Shown: positions 2,960-18,706 of the stretch, one piece after another
How positions within the stretch are numbered: the stretch's first letter is position 1
Layout: each line of letters begins with the position of its first letter
Source: Daphnia pulex
Lineage: Eukaryota > Arthropoda > Branchiopoda > Diplostraca > Daphniidae
Reading direction: 5' to 3'
DNA length: 64,000 nucleotides
Assembly: GCF_021134715.1 (NCBI RefSeq)
Contig: NC_060023.1
Coordinates: forward strand, 11,656,001 to 11,720,000
Notes under the pieces: model-generated
What the model was told of the DNA's origin: nothing
The model's input: only the letters and a program-made list of their open reading frames with translations
Databases searched by the model: none
Made by a program: the position numbers and the translations under genes

Positions 2960-5268
2960 ATGTCAGGAAAAAGCAATTCAAATGCTAGTATGAACATGAG
3001 TTGTGATGATGAAGAATTCGTATCGTGCCAAATATGTTTCATGAACTTTGATGAGACAGAACGCGTACCAAAATATTTGGAAAAGTGCTACCACTTTTTT
3101 TGCCTTCCTTGCCTCAAGGTGATGCTTTTCTTCTATACTCATTAATTGTGTCTTCACGGGTTTTGGTATTTTAATCTGAACATTATTAGGATCTAAGTGA
3201 ATCATCTGGCAGAAAGAAAGTTCTTTGTCCTGTTTGCAGGTCAGCTTCAACTTTGTCAAAGAGAAAATGTGAAGAATTGGTTACCAACCATGTTGCCTTG
3301 CGCCTTTTAAAGGTAGTTGAAACCCAGACAAAAGCTGGTGAAAGAGAGTAAGAATTTTTGAAAATAACTCAAATTTTACTTAATATATTACATTTATATT
3401 GTTTAAACTTCAAGGGTGGAACAGCTGTGGTGTACTGAATGTAATTCTTCTGCATCTGTCGCTTGCCAGCAAAGCAAGCATAAAACTCAAAACTACCTTG
3501 AAGCATACAGTGAACGTTGTCTGCAGCTGAAATCTAGAATTAATGAACAACATTTAACCTGTGATAAAGTTTTGAAAGACTGTCATCAAGTCCAGTCAGT
3601 TAACCAATTTGTCCTGAGTTGTGCTGATTGGCTTCAGTCAGAATTTAGTCACAGGAATGCTACCAACAATATTTTAATAGCACAAGTAGAATCTCTTAAG
3701 TCATCTGAAGAATTTTCCATTCTTATGGAAGAAGATATGGTGAAAACCTTAAAAACAATTGATGAACTTAAAGTCAAGTAAAAACTATATCTTGTTTCAG
3801 TTTTAATATGTATGTTATTTTAATGTGTTGTTATTTTTGTTTGCAGGTTCAGCTCCAGAACTGAAGATGTTAAAGCCACAGGATCAAAAATTCTTGATGT
3901 CCTAAATTCACTGAGCAGTGCTCAACAAGATGCGGAATACCTAGCGCATTTTTCAAGTGATGTGTCACCTTCTAATATTGTTGACTGGCTTAAAATGTTG
4001 AACAATTTAAACTTGGAAGCCTCTTCAAGGAATAGCTATTTAAAGCGTAAGTATTTATATGGTTTAATATAAAAATAAAGCAGATTAGAACATTCGATTA
4101 ATCGCGTTAAAATTGTTCAGTCTGTGTCAAAGTTCTCGCATTTCTATTAACGCTGTTGAGTGAAGAACTCAAAAATACGGAAAACACTTCTGCATCGAAT
4201 GCTAGCAGCAGCAATAAGAATGACGGTTTGAACAAACAGTGCAATGGCGATCTGGAAAAGGAAGAAATTAATGGGAAACTTGACGAAATCCGAAATCCAT
4301 CTGAAAATAATGAACCACTTCGTATGCATTTATTTTATACGTTTTCTAATCAATGCCATTTGATTAAAATGGATTTGTATACCATGGATTTTAGCTTCTT
4401 GCTCAGGCACGCACAAGCGAATGGCTCAAAACCAACCACAAGGCGCATCCACTAGCAAAAAATTTCGTGAGCAACCACCCACATTGATTGAAATCGAAAA
4501 GAGAACTGGACAAGAAACCAACGAAAAGTATGAATTCATTGTGTTCTTGTTATTTAGTGTCCACTAGATATGTGATTATAGCGAATTAAAAATTTGTTTT
4601 AAACATTTTAGATGGAAGATGCCTAATATTTGCCCGAGAAAGTGCTATTTCCAGTTTCGAATTAATGACGAGGAGGCAAGTGAACGAGTAATTTTCGAGT
4701 TATATGATGATATGGCCCCGATCATGGCTTCCAAGTTTCGTGAGTTCTGTACTGGTACACTCGGAGGCCCTGGATACTTAGGGTCGAAAGTATTTCCGGT
4801 ATGTCTCAATCCGATGCATCTCTTATTTTGTAACCAAAATATCTTTTAAACATTTAGCACCAAGTTGTCCACAATCAACTACCGACGTTGAAAAGTATCC
4901 CTAGTTTGAGAGGAGGTCAAATTTTCGATCTTGAAAATTATCTGTTCATTGCTGACGTCTCATCTGTGCCGGCCAAACTTGGTTCGATTTTATTTACTGT
5001 CCAAGAGGATAACCTTTGGGTTGGATACCACACACATTTCATAACTTAAATTTCAAACTTATCCGATTCTTTTGATTATTTTTAAAAATAGGGAAAAATA
5101 GTTTCGCCTGACTTTCAAATACTATTGGGTGATCCCCAGTGGGATGAAACGAATATGCTGAAGACAACCTTTGGTCACGTTGTTGTCGGCTTTAACGTAT
5201 TGGAGAGGATTAGGAAAATCCAAGTTACCAAGGATGTGGTCACTATCGTTGATTGTGGAGTTATCTAA
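2960..5268 (+). CDS. Gene B: RING / B-box-like / coiled-coil / cyclophilin-like protein
   Basis: Complete TRIM-like protein ending in a divergent cyclophilin domain. Exons 2960-3118, 3190-3347, 3415-3777, 3847-4046, 4121-4321, 4407-4527, 4612-4798, 4858-5019 and 5092-5268 sum to 1728 nt, 575 residues. RING at about residues 22-85 (CQIC, CYHFFC, PCLK, then CPVC). A B-box-like WCTEC motif begins at about 108, followed by a helical coiled-coil region to about 290. An Asn/Ser/Glu-rich linker precedes the cyclophilin-like part at about 405-575 (FELYDDMAPIM, then FREFCTGTLGGPGY, ending TIVDCGVI). The catalytic FHR and QGGDF motifs of active cyclophilins are not recognisable, so isomerase activity is doubtful; a ligand-binding role is inference. 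The donor after residue NLW is GTTGGA, which is weak. Exon 1 (159 nt) and exon 3 (363 nt) match gene C exactly. A neighbouring gene on the other strand has the same C-terminus. Confidence 0.85.
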
Positions 5269-6074: not shown

Positions 6075-9000
6075 ATGACGGAAAATAAGTACTCGTTAAA
6101 TGTATCTTCATCCGAAAACGATGATGAATTCGTTTGTGATATATGCAAAGTAATTGTTTATAAGAATGATACAAAATATGCATTATCAGCATGTTTCAAT
6201 GAGTGCCACTTCTTTTGTCCTCCTTGTAAACAGGTAGCATTTATTTTCTCTTACTACTCATTAAACGTCTAATAAATCAGCAACTTTTCAATTTCAGTCA
6301 TCAGCAGCAACTGATGGTAGCAAAGATAGTCAGCCCGAATTAAGCTGTCCTCTGTGTATGTTGTCAGAAAGAGAGAATGAAGTGTAAGTTTCTTAATTTC
6401 AAAATATTTTTGTCTTTTTATATATCCATAAAAATTTACAGACTTTTTGTTGTGCAGAAAAGAACAACTGTGGTGTTCTCAGTGTAATGTTCCAGCATCA
6501 CTGGCCTGCTATGAAGAAAGCCATATAATACAGAATTATAATGATCTCTACAATGCTCATTCTTTAAAGCTAAAGCTTCAGATTAACGAAACAAATGCTG
6601 CCTGTGACCATACTTTGGTGAAATGTCGTCAAATTCAGTCTGTTCATCAAGTAATTCTCACTTGGATGCAATGGCTTCATCTAGAAATAAGTCAATGGAA
6701 TTCAGCCAATAATGACACAGTTGCTCAGTTGGAGTCTCTCAAAATATCAGAAGGGTTTCATGTTCCACGAGGAAAAGATCTACAGTGTAACATTAATAAT
6801 ATTAATCAGCTTTTAGCCCAGTGAGTATAAGAAACTTTTCTCTCTTGTCAAAGTTTTTAACTGAATTTTCTTTCTAGATCCAATGATAGGATTCAAGAGG
6901 CTCAAGCTAGCCAACTGAAAGTTAGCCAGTTGTTTGAAACATACCACGAGTGCACTACCCAACAAGAATTAACTTCATCAGCGCAAACGTCGAATGTAGA
7001 ATCAACGGAACTGATGAAATGGTTTAGTACTTCGTTTAACCAGACTAATCAATGTAATATGTTCATTTAAAGTATAGATTCAAAATTGCTAAAATTTATC
7101 ATTTTTATTTTAAAGCTTGTATCAACGTTCTTGCATTTCTGATTTCATTGTTGCGCAAGGGCGATAAAAAGATAAAAGAAGAAGAACAGGATTCGAATGA
7201 CGCAAGAGGCAAAGCTATAATCCGTCCTAATAAGCGGCGGGCAGAGGACGATCAAGAATCCTCGCGTGTTGGCAAGAAGGCTCGAAATGAGAGTTCAGAT
7301 CGGTTTGAAGAAGATCCTTCCTGCGACGTGTCCAGGTACTTAACATTGTTGTATTTAAACCATTATTGGGGCTAGTGTTTCTTTCTTTTCTGAGTAGAAA
7401 TAATACCGATAGTCTTGCAATTAAAAAAGAAAAGGATTATCCAGAAGAAAACGAAAATCAAGCCGAGCAAGTACGTAAGCATGAAGAGACTAAAGCTGAA
7501 AATATTTTATTTTACTACATTTGATTTTCTTCTTTATGATATAGACATTTTCCAATCAGGTTTTGGAAGACAGAGCTGCTGAGCTGGACAAAGAAGCAGA
7601 GCGAAATACCGATGTTTCAAATCGAATAGCACGACTCGAAGCCGATTTAGAATTCATGACCAAGCAAATTAAACAGGCCAAAGAATCTGAAGCCAAAGCA
7701 CGTAAAGAAACGTTGAATCAAACTGAACGGGCTAAAAGAACGGAAGAAAAATATGAATTGGAGTTAAAGCAGCACTCTTCCGATGTTAAGCAGCTGAAAG
7801 CTGCACATGAACAGCTGGCACAAAGCAGATCTCAATTAGCAAAAGTATTGCGGCAACTATCAAATAGATCAACACCAGACTTGATAGAGAAACTCCAACG
7901 TGATAAAGAATTACTTGAGAAGCGATTGGAACAGGTACAGACGGAAATGGATGAAATCAAGGAGGCCCGAGAGAAAAGTATCCTTCAGGTAATGAGGGTC
8001 AATGCTGAATCCGTGGCACTGAAAATCACTTTGCAGGAAGAAGTCCGTTCAGCAAAAGAAGAATCGCAGCAATTAAAAACGAAGTTGACTGAAACTATGG
8101 CCAAACATATAAATGAACTACATCGATTTCGCGATTACAAGACGCAGTTCGAAGAGCTTAAAATTGAATTCGATAAATTAATCCTTGAAAAAGAAAAATG
8201 TTCTGCTAATCTTGCCGCCGTTCAAGCCGCTCAAATCAAGGATCAAGAAATTGCCAAAAACAAAGCTGAATTGGAGAAAGCCAATCCAAAAATTGTTAAA
8301 CAGGAAATGCATCAACCTTGTCTATCTTCAACGAAGCAACAAAATGTTCCAGTTGTTGCAAACCAACAACATCCAGCAGCACAACATGTCACTTCAACTT
8401 TGACACCACAGCAAGTTATTCAGAGAAATCCAACAAACAAGTGTAACGTACAGAATGTTGTCGTTCAAAATGTCGGGAATCCGTACAAACAGTTGCAGAT
8501 TTTCAACTTTAATGCCATAGCCGCGGATATGTTGGTAGAGCTTCACAACAATAATGGAAACGTTGTCCAATTCGTTTACCCTTGCAACAATTGCAAACGG
8601 CCAGCAGAGACTGGATTCTACTGCGGTGAATGTGATGATTTCAAATTGTGCTTTCTCTGCCATAAAAAAGACGGGCATCATCACAAGATGGAGAAATTTG
8701 GGTTCGAGTTGGACCGAATCAACTCATCGTCCCATTTGAAAGATGTCACGGAAGATCGCATATCGAGAATTGATCGACGCATCCTTTCGTTTGTCCATTC
8801 GTTTTATTGTATTATTGACTACTGCCTTGAACCATTTTGCCGTACGATGAAAGAAGTCGTCGCACACAATCTTGCGTGTCACGCTAAAACATCCATTGGA
8901 GAATTTAAAGGAAGTCCCAAGTTACAAAGCCGTTGTCTAGTTTGTCGGCAGCTTGTCGGCCTTATTATCAGTCATGCACACAACTGCACCGATCTCGAAT

Positions 9001-10729
9001 GCAGTAAACCTTATTGCTCAAATGTGAAGAAGAAGATTAAGAACAATTTATTCCTGGATAATCTATTCAAATCCACAAGGAAAGCGCTTCCCCCACCGAA
9101 AAAACTGGGGAACCCTAATTTGGAGCCATTGGGCTCACGGAACAAAAATCAAATTCCCATCAACACAACAACAACTTCATCTGCAGACTTATCCAAAAAA
9201 GATTTGAGCAAAAAACCACTTCCGGATAAATCCCCCGCAGACGATTTCCCTCGAGCTGTTCACAGCGTTATTCAAGCACCAACTTCGTCAGGATCGGTTG
9301 ACAGTGGAATTGTAATATCCAGTCCTACAGCAATCACCTATGCAGAGAATTTGAAACGGATACAGGAGAACGTCGCACTAGTTATTCATGCTCATAAATG
9401 CCTGCAAGGAGTTAACCAGGCAAACGAATCGGTGCGTTCACTCACTCTTTATTATCTTTACAGAAATTCTCAGTTTAAATTGTTTTTCCTCTTTTTTATC
9501 AACCTAACAGTGCCCCACTCCACACTGCCTGAAAATGAAGAACATTTTGAACCACGTGAGATCATGCCAGAATGGTGAGTCGTGCCAAGTACCTCATTGC
9601 TCAAATTCGAAGAAGATAATTTCTCATTGGAGAAATTGCTGTAAATCTGATTGCCTTTTTTGCGTCGCTCTCAAAGCGTCAGATCATAATAAAGGTACAA
9701 AATAACTTTAACGTGATCTCAATGTTTACTTATCATTTAATATTTCCTTATGTTTCTTTCCCTACCCGGAAATTAGTGACAGTAGATTCAAGCGGTGCAG
9801 GAGTTGTGGCCTTGACAGTAAAACCATACGAAGCTCTTGGTGGAACTCAAGCTCCTACTAAATCTGTACAAGGTCAATTGCCAAGGCTTCAACCAGCTCC
9901 GTCTCAACAGTTGAATTCAACCGCCCAAATGGAAAACGTTCGACCAGTCACATCAACCGGCTATGTTTCTCATGTAAATAATTAATTTTTAATTTATACT
10001 CAAAGAATATCTGTAAAACTGTAATATCAATTAACTCTTTGTAACTAAGATCATTAAAGCAACTTTAATGGATTCCAGAACTACCGGTTGTGTAATGCTC
10101 TATTAAAATTGTATTAGGTTGCAACCCAAGACGGGGGTGACAATCAAAGGGCTGGCGAAGATGCCGTGAAAACGTCAAACTCGATGGGTGTCTTACCTAA
10201 ACTGCAGGAATTTGGCAAGAGAGTCATTACACCTCTTCAGTTGAATGTTTCACATCCCACCACTCCGTGTGTCCTAGATCCACCGCCAATAACTAACCTC
10301 CTTACTTCTCAAAATGTGACAGTTGATGGGGAAGTCAATCAAGCAATCCATCCCGTGGGAGCTAAGACAAACGTGGACACTAGCACGAGTGCGGATGGTG
10401 AAAAAAGAAAAATTCCACAGGAATCGGTCGATTCTATTCCACAACAGCCACTGTCCGGGAAAACTATGCACCTTGGTTTGGCCATCGCTATGGGTGGCGG
10501 AATTTGTTGTCCCGTTGGTGCGATGAATCGGAAAGCTCTCGCTAAACTACTACTGGATCCTGAACCATTTGGATGTAGAATTCGGTCAACTCTCAAAGAA
10601 CTTTTGATGAAAATGAAATCACCAAACGTGACTGAAGAAACACGTCAACGAATTGCAATTTTTTTCGGAATCAACTACCTTTTTGTTTGTTCATTTTTCC
10701 GTAAACAAAGTGAGCAGAGTGGATTATAG
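6075..10729 (+). CDS. Gene C: RING / long coiled-coil / ZZ / TAZ2 / TAZ1 / NCBD-like chimeric protein
   Basis: Ten exons (6075-6233, 6298-6383, 6458-6820, 6878-7053, 7116-7335, 7398-7470, 7545-9431, 9511-9694, 9777-9973, 10118-10729) sum to 3957 nt, 1318 residues. RING at about 20-75 ([16 protein letters not shown]); B-box-like WCSQC at about 87; basic nuclear-localisation-like cluster PNKRRAED...GKKAR near 300; Glu/Lys/Gln-rich coiled coil about 362-610; Gln-rich stretch; ZZ zinc finger about 703-747 (CNNC, CGEC, CFLC, HHHKM); TAZ2 about 762-857 ([25 protein letters not shown]); TAZ1 about 960-1049 (LVIHAHKC, then [19 protein letters not shown]), split by an intron; and a C-terminal [11 protein letters not shown] segment resembling the CBP NCBD, about 1270-1313. 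ZZ, TAZ and NCBD modules belong to CBP/p300 coactivators, but no HAT, KIX or bromodomain is present. A nuclear ubiquitin ligase or transcription-factor decoy is inference. Confidence 0.85.
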
Positions 10730-12818: not shown

Positions 12819-14107
12819 ATGTCAGAAAATAAAGTGGAAGTGATTGATATCAATGATGATGATGATGGAGACTTTGTCTCCTGCCAGGTCTGCTTTACAA
12901 ACTTTAATGAAGGAGAACATCTGCCAAAATTTTTAGACAAATGTCATCACTTTTTCTGTCTTACCTGTATTAAGGTGACCCTTATAATTTTATGCTCAAA
13001 GTGCGAACAAATCAACAGCATCTATTTTGTTTGACAGAGTCTTGTAAAAGGTACAAACAGCAGAAAGAAAGTAACCTGTCCCATGTGCAGAGCAACTTCA
13101 GTACTTGGAAAGAAGAAATGTGAAGATTTAGGCACAAATCATATTGCCTTGCGTTTATTAATAGTGGTTGGAGAATCCCAGAAAAAACAGAACGAAGGGT
13201 AAGACTTTCAAGAGGAGGAGGGGCAATAAATAACTTATAATTGATTGTTATTGATTGATTTCCAGGACAAACCAGCAGTGGTGTTCTGAATGTAATGCTT
13301 CAGCATCTAAAAACTGTGATCTTCAGAAACATGAAATTATAAATTTCAACGAAATATACCATTCCCACTCTTTGCTCCTCAAGGATATTATCATCAATTC
13401 AAATTCAGCATGTGACCAAGCCCTGGAAATTTACAGAAAAATTGAGTCTTCACATGAAGTCATTCTGACTAGAATTCGGTGGCTTGAGTCTGAAATGACT
13501 CAAAGGGTATTATCTAATAATGCCAAAATTGCTCATGTGGAGTCCTTGAAATCAGAAGAAGGATGGATTGATGCATGCAAGGAAGAAAACATGAATGCAA
13601 GCATGAATAAAATCAAACAGCTTGTAGTCAAGTATGGAACCTTTATTGAAAAAATATTTTATTTATCTTAATTTTTCAAATTACAGGTTCAGTGACATAA
13701 CTGAAGAGGTGAAAGCTGCTGAATTAAAGGCTAAAGATTACCTTGATACTAATGGCAGTAACGACGTTGCTTTCTTAATTGAATTATTGAAAAGTCAAGA
13801 AACCGATCCTTCGGAAAATTTCACTTCCGTTCCAAATGGCAGCAGTATCAGTGGCGTGGTGATTCAAGATAATCCGGTAACTAAGGTCACGAAAGATCAA
13901 GAATTGAAACAAAATCGTGCGTATATTTAATTTTCAATTTCTAAAACGTTAAATTCTTAATCTTTCCATGGTATTTATTTCTTACGTGGTATTTAGAAAG
14001 TCAACAATTACCCAAGCGACGGGGTGAAGAGCATGCAGAATCAACTACACTTCCTACGAAGAAGATTCGGGTAGAAACTCCAATCGAGTCAAATAAGAAG
14101 ATCTATA
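12819..14107 (+). CDS. Gene D, 5' half: RING / B-box-like / coiled-coil, interrupted by a transposon
   Basis: Exons 12819-12974, 13038-13198, 13266-13631, 13687-13916 and 13997 onward are in frame. The start follows an acceptor (CTGCAG|GAAAC-ATG), so a 5' UTR exon exists. The RING (CQVC, CHHFFC, LTC, then CPMC) and the WCSEC B-box-like motif with a helical region closely parallel genes B and C. Exon 5 has basic clusters PKRRGEE and PTKKIRVE like the gene C nuclear-localisation-like segment. The ORF then enters the transposon at 14108, which adds a few codons (AVRHLF) and a stop. A truncated RING-coiled-coil protein may be made. Without the insertion the frame meets a stop near 15508 before the ZZ-TAZ frame, so the two halves do not join simply. 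Confidence 0.75.
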
Positions 14108-15463
14108 GGGCTGTTCGACATCTTTTTTAACATTTGTTGCCATCGTGGCAACGCAGCAACTCATGTATTTTTTGTCTGCTACGAGTGACTTGTTTATTCT
14201 GTGAAATATGAAAGTTCGTGTGTTCGGATCACTTTGTTACAGGTATTTGTAGGTTAATACTAACAATTATTGATTATTATCTTACAATTTGTGAAATGCT
14301 TACAGGAAAGCCGAGTGGAGAATTCCACAAAAAACATGTTGATTGGGCACCCTCTATAAATGTGGGATCAAATAAGACGAAACAATTTCTAGGTATAAGG
14401 TATTGCATTATTCATTTCATGTTGTAAAAAAAAACAGTCCTATATGTTGTTTTAATGAATGAACTATTTTGTCATTACAGATGGTGATCATCAAGTACGT
14501 AACAATGTTGCTTTTGACAAGGCTGATACACCTCCATTGATAGATGTTGAAACTGCAACTGAAGTTAAGGATTCCGGTTTTTTGAACAATTTGATACAAG
14601 TTGATTTAGTTATGGCTGATAGGGGATTTACAGTTCATGAGGCTGTTACTTTACGAATGCAAATCTTGCTGTGCCTTCGTTCCTTGGAAAGCAAACACAG
14701 TTGTCAAATGTTGAAGTTGAGTACTTTAGAGGCCTAGCAAGGATTCGTATACATGTTGAGAGAGTTATAGGGGCCACAAAACAAAGATCACTATTTTAGA
14801 AGGTCCTCTTCATCGTGCAACACTTTCTGTTTCAAAGGGTGAAGATTCAGCAATAATTGATAAAATTGTTATGGTCTGTTGCGCTCTTTACAATTCGTGT
14901 TCATCTGTTGTACCCTTACTGTAGTGTGTTTAGGTGAATAATTGTCATAATAAACCACAAATTTTCAAAAAATACTTGATGTATTAACCTTGGTTAACAG
15001 GGGCACAAACAGATTACCATTTTCTTCGTAATAATTTAAACAAACACAACATTTTCACAAATGGATATTTTCTTTTTTACAAAGGAAGGTACACAAATTG
15101 TATCTTTTCACTCACTACTGATTGGTTATATTGGAAAGTGCTGTTCTCTGAACTTGACTGTTACTAGGAACGACCGGTAAGTACGGTTAGGCGATTTGTA
15201 ACTTTCCCAAATAACGTGTTTTGGCCTCAATACTAAGTCAACTGGCATAATTAGACAGTGACATAGTTAAACACTAACACTATAACGAACTAATATATAA
15301 AGAAAACACATCACAACTTCAAAACAACCCCCTTTTCTATCACTATTTTTAAAAAAATTCATATTTCGCAGAACTACACAATTCACTCGTAGCAGACAAA
15401 AAATACATGAGTTGCTGCGTTGCCACGATGGCAACAAATGTTAAAAAAGATGTCGAACAGCCC
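14108..15463 (+). mobile_element. DNA transposon, 1356 bp, 81-bp perfect TIRs, THAP plus DDE remnants
   Basis: The terminal inverted repeats 14108-14188 and 15383-15463 are perfect reverse complements (start GGGCTGTTCGAC). The element is flanked by TA on both sides, so the target duplication is TA, or TATA if counted wider. Internal remnants are the end of a THAP zinc finger (VCSDHFV, GKPS) and the end of a DDE_4-type transposase. The combination of THAP and DDE_4 fits the ISL2EU / PIF-like group; assignment is inferred. Most of the transposase is missing, so it is a non-autonomous deletion derivative. Perfect TIRs suggest recent movement. Confidence 0.85.
14209..14924 (+). pseudogene. Transposase remnant (THAP C-terminus and DDE_4 C-terminus)
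   Basis: Fragments in three short exon-like blocks. KVRVCSDHFVT precedes a GT donor and continues after an AG as GKPSGEFHKKHVDW, the end of a THAP domain. A later block holds VMADRGFTVHEAVTLR of a DDE_4 superfamily endonuclease. A frameshift follows at about 14656, after which RGLARIRIHVERVIGATKQR and DKIVMVCCALYNSC can be read, ending at a TAG. The first catalytic acidic residues and the THAP N-terminus are absent. Confidence 0.75.
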
Positions 15464-15492
15464 TATACTAAAACTGTGTTGCCTGGAGTTGA

Positions 15493-16353
15493 GCAAAAAA
15501 TGCAGATCTAAAGAAATCACAAAATTCTAACTCGACCACTTTTCAAAGTGTGTCACATCCTGAAACTAATGACACAGTGGGTGTTGAGCAAAACAGAGAA
15601 AGTCAGAATTATCTACAACAGAGAAATGTCTATAATCCCGTCTTCTGGAAGAATATCTCTATCCAACTACAGAAAAGTCCTCCTTTTGGAGTTAAGGAAT
15701 TTCAATGCGTTTTATCGAATTTGTGCATAGAGAAGAAAGAAATCGACATGTCTCATTTATTCAAATGCAATGATTGCAAGAAGCCAATTGGAAATTGCTA
15801 CTTTAACTATTGCTTCGATTGTGAGGATTACCAATTGTGCGTCTCTTGCAATGAAAATGCTAAACATGGACACAAGATGGAAAAATTCGGATTTGATGTG
15901 AACCCCCAGGATGAATTCGGGATTGAGCTCTGGGCCCAGTCATTTCTTCATGCGATTGAATGCTTCGACCAGAAATGTACTTCTCTACGTTGTGGGGATG
16001 TAAAGCGCGCCTTCGTTCATAAGGAAACATGCTTGAAGCCAAAAGGTACCAACTGTTCAATCTGCAATCAGCTGGTCGCCATATTGATCTACCATGCAAA
16101 GTGTTGTACAAGCCCCAACTGCCGTGTTCCTCACTGTAGTACTTATTCTGCTCGAGATTTGTTTGCCCAACAACACACAGTTGGCAATAGTCAGAGACCA
16201 GTGATGCAATATGGAGGTATGTTCAGCCACTATAATAACTTTTATGGAACGACATCGAGTTATGCGAGTACCAGTGGTGAAGAACTACCCTCATACAACT
16301 ATGGCATGCAATATCCCATGGACTATTGGTATGGAAATTATCAAAAATATTAG
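15493..16353 (+). CDS. Gene D, 3' half: ZZ and TAZ2 zinc-finger domains
   Basis: Open frame downstream of the transposon, without its own convincing start codon (TGA just before 15493). A ZZ finger (CNDC, CFDC, CVSC, then HGHKM) at about 15763-15890 is followed by a TAZ2-like finger (FLHAIECFDQKC, then CSICNQLVAILIYHAKCC, CRVPHC) at about 15910-16150. Both are close to gene C. The tail is Tyr/Ser/Gly-rich and ends in YGNYQKY; there is no TAZ1 or NCBD-like part. An acceptor (AAATGCAG) near 15505 could bring this in as a 3' exon. It could be part of a spliced gene D with the transposon inside an intron, or a stranded pseudogene half. Confidence 0.7.
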   Translation, partial: AKNADLKKSQNSNSTTFQSVSHPETNDTVGVEQNRESQNYLQQRNVYNPVFWKNISIQLQKSPPFGVKEFQCVLSNLCIEKKEIDMSHLFKCNDCKKPIGNCYFNYCFDCEDYQLCVSCNENAKHGHKMEKFGFDVNPQDEFGIELWAQSFLHAIECFDQKCTSLRCGDVKRAFVHKETCLKPKGTNCSICNQLVAILIYHAKCCTSPNCRVPHCSTYSARDLFAQQHTVGNSQRPVMQYGGMFSHYNNFYGTTSSYASTSGEELPSYNYGMQYPMDYWYGNYQKY

Positions 16354-17289: not shown

Positions 17290-18706
17290 ATGGCGTCAAT
17301 ATTAAATGAAGCAGTATCTGACACAGATGAAGACCTGATAACTTGTCATGTTTGTCTGCAGGAATTTAGCTCGTTGGAGAAGCATAAACCCAAATTTCTT
17401 GACTGTAAGATGTATTTAAGAAATCATATTTTTTGCTCATTACTCATTAATTTTACATGCCTCAAATTCCAGGTCATCATTACTTTTGTGTCAGTTGTAT
17501 ACAAGTAAGGACAAATTAAAAGGTTAAATTCTCTGTAACAATCATTCTGGTTAACATTCGTATACACAGGGCTTTTCTAACGTGAATTCGGTACTTTGCC
17601 CGACTTGCCGCAGATTGACGAACATGAAGGGACGCAAGATAGAAGAGTTGGCCACCAACAACGTCGTTTTACGTTTGGTGACCATAGAAACCAACCGAGC
17701 TCGTGAACTTGCCGAACGGGAAAAAAAGAGGAAGGCTGAAGCGGACACCGAAGCGTATGATACAGACTTTTTCAAATCTTTGCATCCATTTTTAAGAAAC
17801 AAAAGCGAAGGACTAATTAATTATTATGTCTTATAACCTTTCAGGAAACAACAAAAGTGGTGCACTGACTGTTCTTTCCTTGCATATGGTGGTTGCATTA
17901 AAGATAATCATCAAGTCAAGAATTATAAGGACTACTTTCAAGATCGTTACTCACACCTACAATCAATCATCGGAGACATACAGTCATCTTGCAAACAAGC
18001 CCTAAACGATGTTACGAAAATTCAGTTGGTTCACACAGATATTCTTGGCAAGCTGCAAGTGCTTTGTTCCGAAATTAATAGAAGAGTGGCTTCTAGCAAA
18101 GACACAATCGCCGAGTTGGAATGCCGTCTTAAATCAGTAAATGATATTGATATTTATGAAGAAGAAGACATGTTTAATTTGATCAAGAAAGTTAATCAAC
18201 TGATTGTTGAGTATATCAAGAAATGTATTTTTACTTGCTGCGCAAAATGTTTTAATCGCCCAATTATTTATGCAGATTTAGTGGTAAATTAAAAGAAACC
18301 CAGTCTATCAAATTGAATGCTGGTAACCTTCTTCGGTCGTACGGTAATTACTTAAATGAAGCTATAATTATGTTATCAAACGATGAAACAATGGAAGACA
18401 AAAAGACATCAAGAACAGCTGCGGTATTGAACAAAGACATTGAATCGCGTACGTACTTCGGTTTTTGTATTTGTTTTCTGCTGTTCAATTTTCTTAATGA
18501 ATGAATTTATAGCGTCTTGCTCAGATTCTTCGCAAGTCAAAGAGACAACAGGTCAGCCCAATAACAAGAAAATTCGAATTTCAATTATCCCAAACACCAG
18601 GGCAGACGCGTTAGGCCTACCGAGTCAAGGTCTATCTATTCAGCAATTAAGATCGTTTATTCTTAAAAAAGGCGAATCGGCTAGAAATACTCGTTCACCC
18701 AACTGA
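17290..18706 (+). CDS. Gene E: short RING / B-box-like / coiled-coil protein
   Basis: Six exons (17290-17404, 17473-17504, 17570-17754, 17845-18210, 18276-18448, 18513-18706) sum to 1065 nt, 354 residues. The RING is spread over exons 1-3 (CHVC, DC joined to HHYFC, VSC, then CPTC), ending at about residue 60. A WCTDC B-box-like motif begins at about 114, followed by a long helical region (SCKQALNDVTKIQ, then EEEDMFNLIKKVNQLIVE). The basic, Ser-rich tail contains NNKKIRISI and ends TRSPN. There is no cyclophilin, ZZ or TAZ module. The 32- and 185-nt RING exons equal those of gene A. It may be the ancestral simple form or a truncated copy. The E3 ligase role is inferred from the RING. Confidence 0.82.

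Follow-up and report, generated by a model that had tools for sequence, protein, structure and literature searches.

A TRIM-like gene of Daphnia pulex that carries CBP-type docking modules in an altered order

Gene C and its modules

The DNA analyzed here, hereafter the window, is a stretch of 64,000 nucleotides (nt) of the Daphnia pulex genome (NC_060023.1, positions 11,656,001 to 11,720,000; C7:11656001-11720000 in our contig numbering), and genome-wide scans covered 133,188,837 bases in 13 contigs. Our subject is gene C, on the plus strand at 6075..10729 of the window, for which a predicted splice model gives 10 exons (6075-6233, 6298-6383, 6458-6820, 6878-7053, 7116-7335, 7398-7470, 7560-9431, 9511-9694, 9777-9973 and 10118-10729) and a protein of 1313 residues, with a block order that matches a paralogue on contig C11 (locus L010). 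The first-pass annotation had described the spliced model as an exact codon multiple, and both coordinates and frame hold: the spliced sequence is 3942 nt including the stop codon, and all nine introns are GT-AG and 57-144 nt long. Exon 7, at 1872 nt, contains no in-frame stop, whereas its Markov shuffles (n = 2000) carried 29.1 on average and never fewer than 15.

The N-terminus begins with a RING-like region (6135..6357, plus strand; 6135-6233 + 6298-6357) in which the spacing of the third and fourth ligands is unusual and departs from the canonical C3HC4 pattern. Pfam returned no RING match in gene C, in a search where HMMER filters drop most weak matches, and a profile built on six other RINGs, limited to their first halves, did not recover the region at E<=5. 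A B-box-like zinc knuckle and, immediately after it, a helix of 71 residues follow at 6462..6821 (plus strand); the B-box scores 7 bits in Pfam vs a cutoff of 27, and the helix was modeled with a predicted local distance difference test score (pLDDT) of 89.6. When the model of the TRIM part was submitted to Foldseek, 35 of 41 rows were named TRIM or B-box; the resemblance of the predicted fold to B-box structures is weakly scored. The model thus supports a TRIM-like N-terminus, as had been proposed, with a degenerate RING that is one by ancestry only. The ubiquitination role proposed alongside it finds no support for gene C because the RING is oddly spaced and is seen neither by Pfam nor by the paralogue profile. 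Additionally, a motif scan placed a bipartite motif resembling a nuclear localization signal (KRR...KK) at 7232..7279 (plus strand). The motif occurs in all four genes scanned (genes C and D, the C11 paralogue and, in looser form, gene F; genes A, B, E and G lay outside the scan), suggesting a nuclear location for the gene C protein.

The C-terminal half carries the modules that are characteristic of CBP/p300. In a Pfam scan of the whole protein, zf-TAZ matched in two stretches (61.6 bits); KIX, bromodomain and HAT (KAT11), whose absence had been claimed, gave no match. ZZ was missed in that scan but reached 24.3 bits when scanned as a piece (cutoff 21.4). Among PDB sequences, ZZ-TAZ2 aligned as a single stretch with p300 (8hag, 86.5 bits) and TAZ1 with CBP (1r8u, 91.1 bits). 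On the plus strand, the ZZ zinc finger lies at 8571..8714 and shares 33 of 48 residues with the CBP of the same genome; the TAZ2 zinc finger lies at 8772..9005, with 31 of 82 residues shared with CBP across two blocks aligned without gaps; and the TAZ1 zinc finger lies at 9360..9663, with 52 of 90 identical and an intron (9432-9510) at the place of the CBP TAZ1 intron. The alignments retain every position expected in these families to be a zinc ligand: 8 in ZZ, 12 in TAZ1 and 12 in TAZ2. AlphaFold2 modeling of ZZ-TAZ2 from two window sequences was uninformative (mean pLDDT 48.4; Foldseek matches at E<=0.001, 0 of 175).

The last module, an NCBD-like C-terminus at 10583..10711 (plus strand), had no Pfam match in the whole protein or in pieces, and its best PDB match is an NCBD, yet at E = 0.7. 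A profile built from four NCBD sequences scored the last exon at 13.1 bits (E = 0.027 in a search space of 7825 open reading frames, overlapping loci included), the top score outside the training loci, and none of 5000 shuffles reached that score (shuffle maximum, 9.2). Of the ZZ-TAZ2-TAZ1-NCBD series in the first-pass annotation, we conclude that the first three modules and their order are firm and that the fourth, for which the evidence is weak, is probably present.

With three clear modules and one probable module of CBP type, gene C could be taken for an ordinary diverged CBP/p300 gene. ZZ and TAZ2 form one block as in CBP/p300, and both splice positions of the TAZ1 exon are those of CBP. 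However, KIX, bromodomain and HAT all lack a match, TAZ1 follows TAZ2, the N-terminal part is TRIM-like and, further along, resembles the nucleoporin TPR, and the genome already has a CBP, on C6, with TAZ1, KIX, HAT, ZZ, TAZ2 and NCBD. We regard this explanation as extremely improbable, the lack of HAT already counting against it decisively.

Origin of the CBP pieces and of the second coiled coil

The TAZ1 exon of gene C (9511..9694, plus strand) derives from CBP. It and the TAZ1 exon of the genome's own CBP are each 184 nt long, have identical splice sites and share 136 of 184 nt. Equal length, common splice sites and sequence identity together indicate that the TAZ1 piece is a copy of genomic CBP DNA, introns included. 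In agreement with a local source, TAZ1 is closer to the CBP of its own genome (52 of 90 residues) than to human CBP and p300 (44/85 and 45/84), and so is ZZ-TAZ2 (72/164 vs 63/164 and 60/164). Trees of TAZ1 and of ZZ-TAZ2 had low support, so the case for a CBP origin rests on these identities and the common splice sites.

Between gene C and CBP, the TAZ1 exon shows a nonsynonymous rate (dN) of 0.25-0.26 and a synonymous rate (dS) of 0.42-0.70, depending on the method. It keeps 38 of 61 residues; when equally many changes are scattered at random, 30.2 are kept on average and 40 at most (n = 2000), and 85% of the random trials contain a stop. These values suggest mild constraint, and the TAZ1 piece looks either younger or more constrained than TAZ2.

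A decaying chimera, formed when CBP fragments inserted into a TRIM gene and encoding a product that selection does not maintain for any role, would account for the degenerate RING, the diverged TAZ2 and the weak NCBD, and two loci described below, a CBP copy at C7:974 kb that appears decayed by eye and gene D with its transposon, fit the same picture. It does not sit well with 1313 codons that stay open across 10 exons, with an exon 7 free of stops where shuffles hold about 29, or with the retained zinc ligand positions, and we consider it quite unlikely.

Between the TRIM part and the CBP modules lies a second coiled coil (7560..8318, plus strand) related to the TPR/MLP1 nucleoporins, with a match to PF07926 (TPR/MLP1/MLP2) at 7626-7964. 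The Pfam scores in gene C (26.6, 31.0 and 32.6 bits) are below the cutoff of 36, and that of the C11 paralogue (47.2 bits) is above it. Matches below the cutoff also occurred in 8 of 14 prokaryote controls, and low scores with this family therefore carry little meaning. Across the genome, PF07926 found eight places at E<=0.1: two on C3 (89.9 and 79.0 bits), C11 (46.8), gene C (32.6) and four weaker ones. A genome search with residues 358-612 of gene C found six places at E<=0.01, namely itself, three on C3 (a pair at C3:7.49 Mb and a single stretch at C3:7.47 Mb) and two on C11. The gene C block is 34-45% identical to the three C3 stretches, two of which overlap the genome's best PF07926 places. 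Since the match to the C3 loci is collinear, this coiled coil most likely comes from a segment of a TPR-like nucleoporin; gene C has a segment only. The C3 stretches themselves, at C3:7494127 and C3:7472300, are of TPR/MLP1 type and lie about 22 kb apart; the second has an internal stop, and the pair perhaps reflects a partial duplicate of a nucleoporin gene.

The exon ends at the junction between the TRIM exons and exon 7 are predicted, and gene C could accordingly be split into a RING/TRIM gene and an adjoining CBP-derived gene. The C11 paralogue argues against two genes because it retains the gene C blocks together. On one strand of another chromosome, tblastn found, in order, counterparts of residues 83-261, 359-480 and 498-608, a second copy of 377-579, then 984-1034 (TAZ1) and 676-868 (ZZ-TAZ2). 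On C5, moreover, a single open reading frame holds an NCBD together with the second half of a RING. A pair of adjoining genes is therefore very unlikely, and the first-pass view of a single gene stands. TAZ1 precedes ZZ-TAZ2 in the C11 paralogue, so the order of these modules differs between it and gene C. In both TAZ1-like copies at C11, a GT donor site falls roughly where CBP has its own.

CBP modules on RING and TRIM scaffolds elsewhere

We took a census of CBP modules in which only the best candidates were scored, so that the counts are lower bounds. zf-TAZ occurs in at least seven places (two in CBP, two in gene C, one in gene D and two on C11), the NCBD family PF09030 in at least three that do not include gene C (CBP, C5 and C6:4.08 Mb), KIX in at least three, all outside gene C (CBP, C3 and C7:974 kb), and ZZ in at least 13; at E<=0.001 the window has no ZZ. 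HAT was found once genome-wide at E<=0.1, in CBP. An NCBD-like end of gene F, suspected by eye, was supported by neither Pfam nor profiles (4.0 and 6.0 bits) and is not counted.

At least seven loci outside CBP carry copies of CBP modules, and five of them have RING/TRIM N-termini, some exon joins being inferred: gene C and the C11 paralogue (both with degenerate RINGs), gene D, and loci on C5 and C3. Gene D (12819..16353, plus strand), a paralogue read without a whole gene model, has an intact RING (29.4 bits), a B-box/coiled-coil exon, a ZZ (21.8 bits, cutoff 21.4) and a TAZ2 (33 bits, 15928-16137). The C5 locus (L033, C5:8847890-8848330, minus strand) is a short gene whose RING and NCBD are both above their Pfam cutoffs; its RING halves were joined by us, and the second half shares one open reading frame with the NCBD. 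At the C3 locus (L059, 3743-4983), a RING of 36.3 bits is followed by a KIX of 44.1 bits in a separate open reading frame, to which it is presumably joined. We take this RING to be Topors-like, and its type has 47 matches in the genome at E<=0.01, L059 counted. The other two loci, L034 at C6:4.08 Mb and L060 at C7:974 kb, gave no significant RING in the 10 kb searched at each; the RING-half profile matched them weakly (8.3 bits at E = 0.56 and 8.8 bits at E = 0.39).

The probability that five of seven loci would be associated with a RING by chance stays below 1e-5 even if as many as 1000 RING exons are assumed, a rough estimate that ignores the clustering of RING exons. Genes C and D and the C11 paralogue are related, and the five loci may thus represent perhaps only three or four independent fusion events. 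Judged from these sequences, the genome appears to have fused RING/TRIM front ends to pieces of CBP more than once.

Several loci of the census have features of their own. L034 (C6:4078407-4078661) holds an NCBD of 45 bits within an open reading frame of 496 residues and is perhaps a free-standing NCBD protein. L060 is a partial CBP copy with KIX and a TAZ1 that appears decayed by eye. Gene D is interrupted by a transposon of DNA type (14104-15467, 1.36 kb) with 93-nt inverted ends that are 98% complementary and with a faint similarity to DDE_Tnp_4 below the cutoff. We also considered a viral origin and set it aside: two scans of viral contigs gave 2 and 8 pattern matches, of which none was confirmed as a relative.

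A candidate docking protein and its neighbors

We favor, at a probability of roughly 0.55, the reading that gene C encodes a TRIM-type protein with a C-terminus copied from CBP and a TPR/MLP1-like coiled coil, and that its product is a nuclear protein without HAT to which partners of CBP dock. The C-terminus would have been assembled from own-genome copies of ZZ-TAZ2, TAZ1 and probably the NCBD, with the coiled coil placed between these and the TRIM part. If expressed, the protein would most likely be nuclear and oligomeric and would dock ligands without acetylating them. Through its TAZ and NCBD modules it could take up activation domains otherwise bound by CBP, as a competitor or as an adaptor that delivers these domains to other machinery; the competition with CBP that the first-pass annotation envisaged is upheld here as a plausible role. 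The coiled coils may recruit partners, perhaps paralogues with an intact RING or the pore basket. Without a working RING of its own, gene C would need such partners for ubiquitination, and its coiled coil might pair with RING-bearing paralogues into hetero-oligomers. The net outcome would be that CBP-dependent factors are damped, sequestered or marked.

Several observations weigh against this reading. In Foldseek and VIA the TRIM part scores no better than weak to middling, and the NCBD has no Pfam match and a PDB match at E = 0.7. TAZ2 is strongly diverged (31/82), so that its partners may differ from those of CBP. The 38 of 61 residues kept in the TAZ1 exon lie in the tail of the random trials, which reach 40, and not beyond it. 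Finally, the TPR-like segment may mean that the protein works outside CBP biology.

Gene C resembles the TRIM (RBCC) proteins in that its RING-derived region is followed by a B-box-like knuckle and then by a long helix; it differs in the degenerate RING, in a B-box below the Pfam cutoff and in its CBP-derived C-terminal modules, which to our knowledge no TRIM class carries. The docking domains of CBP have so far been studied within a single giant coactivator. Modules mounted on TRIM/RING scaffolds without the enzyme would be a natural experiment that shows which of them is enough for a given partner, and gene C may be a natural competitor of CBP or a decoy of it.

Among the literature matches listed in an open-access search, no paper described a RING/TRIM protein with CBP modules. 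TRIM24 and TRIM25 are TRIM proteins tied to the control of CBP/p300 according to passages of two reports (PMC6761150, PMC10539465); they act in trans, whereas gene C carries CBP modules within itself. Passages of a third report suggest from crustacean contigs that CBP is present as a single copy and call for genomic confirmation (PMC12897451). The genome studied here agrees with those passages in having a single HAT-bearing CBP, and adds to it module copies without HAT.

Gene B (2960..5268, plus strand), a paralogue upstream of gene C, bears on another way of reading the family. It has an intact RING (36 bits), a B-box/coiled-coil exon and a degenerate cyclophilin (PF00160, 36.9 bits) whose PDB matches include TRIMCyp chains among many cyclophilins. 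Like TRIMCyp, gene C combines a TRIM scaffold with a host domain captured at its C-terminal end, and gene B shares even the cyclophilin; the captured domain of gene C is CBP-derived, and an antiviral role here is putative. Given the cyclophilin neighbors and the way in which hub domains have been captured repeatedly, gene C might belong to a TRIM-type restriction family that displays host domains targeted by parasites or viruses as bait, much as TRIMCyp does with cyclophilin, with a set of TRIM/RING scaffolds that keeps capturing hub docking domains (TAZ, ZZ, NCBD and KIX of CBP, cyclophilin, a TPR-like nucleoporin coiled coil) as integrated decoys or programmable adaptors. The C-terminal modules do differ among relatives, a RING occurs with an NCBD on C5 and near a KIX on C3, and gene A joins the same N-terminus to a cyclophilin by eye. 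The RING of gene C and the cyclophilin of gene B are both degenerate, however, and the two viral-contig scans confirmed no relatives. We hold this possibility to be tentative and on the whole unlikely. If true, the scaffolds would bind and remove hub-engaging factors, including those of parasites and viruses, and would be to arthropods what TRIMCyp is elsewhere, only that the bait is CBP. The cyclophilin-tailed neighbor suggests in any case that TRIM scaffolds may collect host domains outside vertebrates as well, here in an animal that is tractable.

The remaining genes of the cluster are minor observations. Gene A (about 2058-1, minus strand) runs past the start of the window and has, by eye only, the same TRIM-like N-terminus and a degenerate cyclophilin, so that genes A and B together present a TRIMCyp-like layout in a crustacean. 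RING exons that resemble the RING of gene B cluster at C7:283-370 kb and 577-740 kb. Gene E, at 17292-18700 of the window, is a fifth TRIM-like gene in the cluster.

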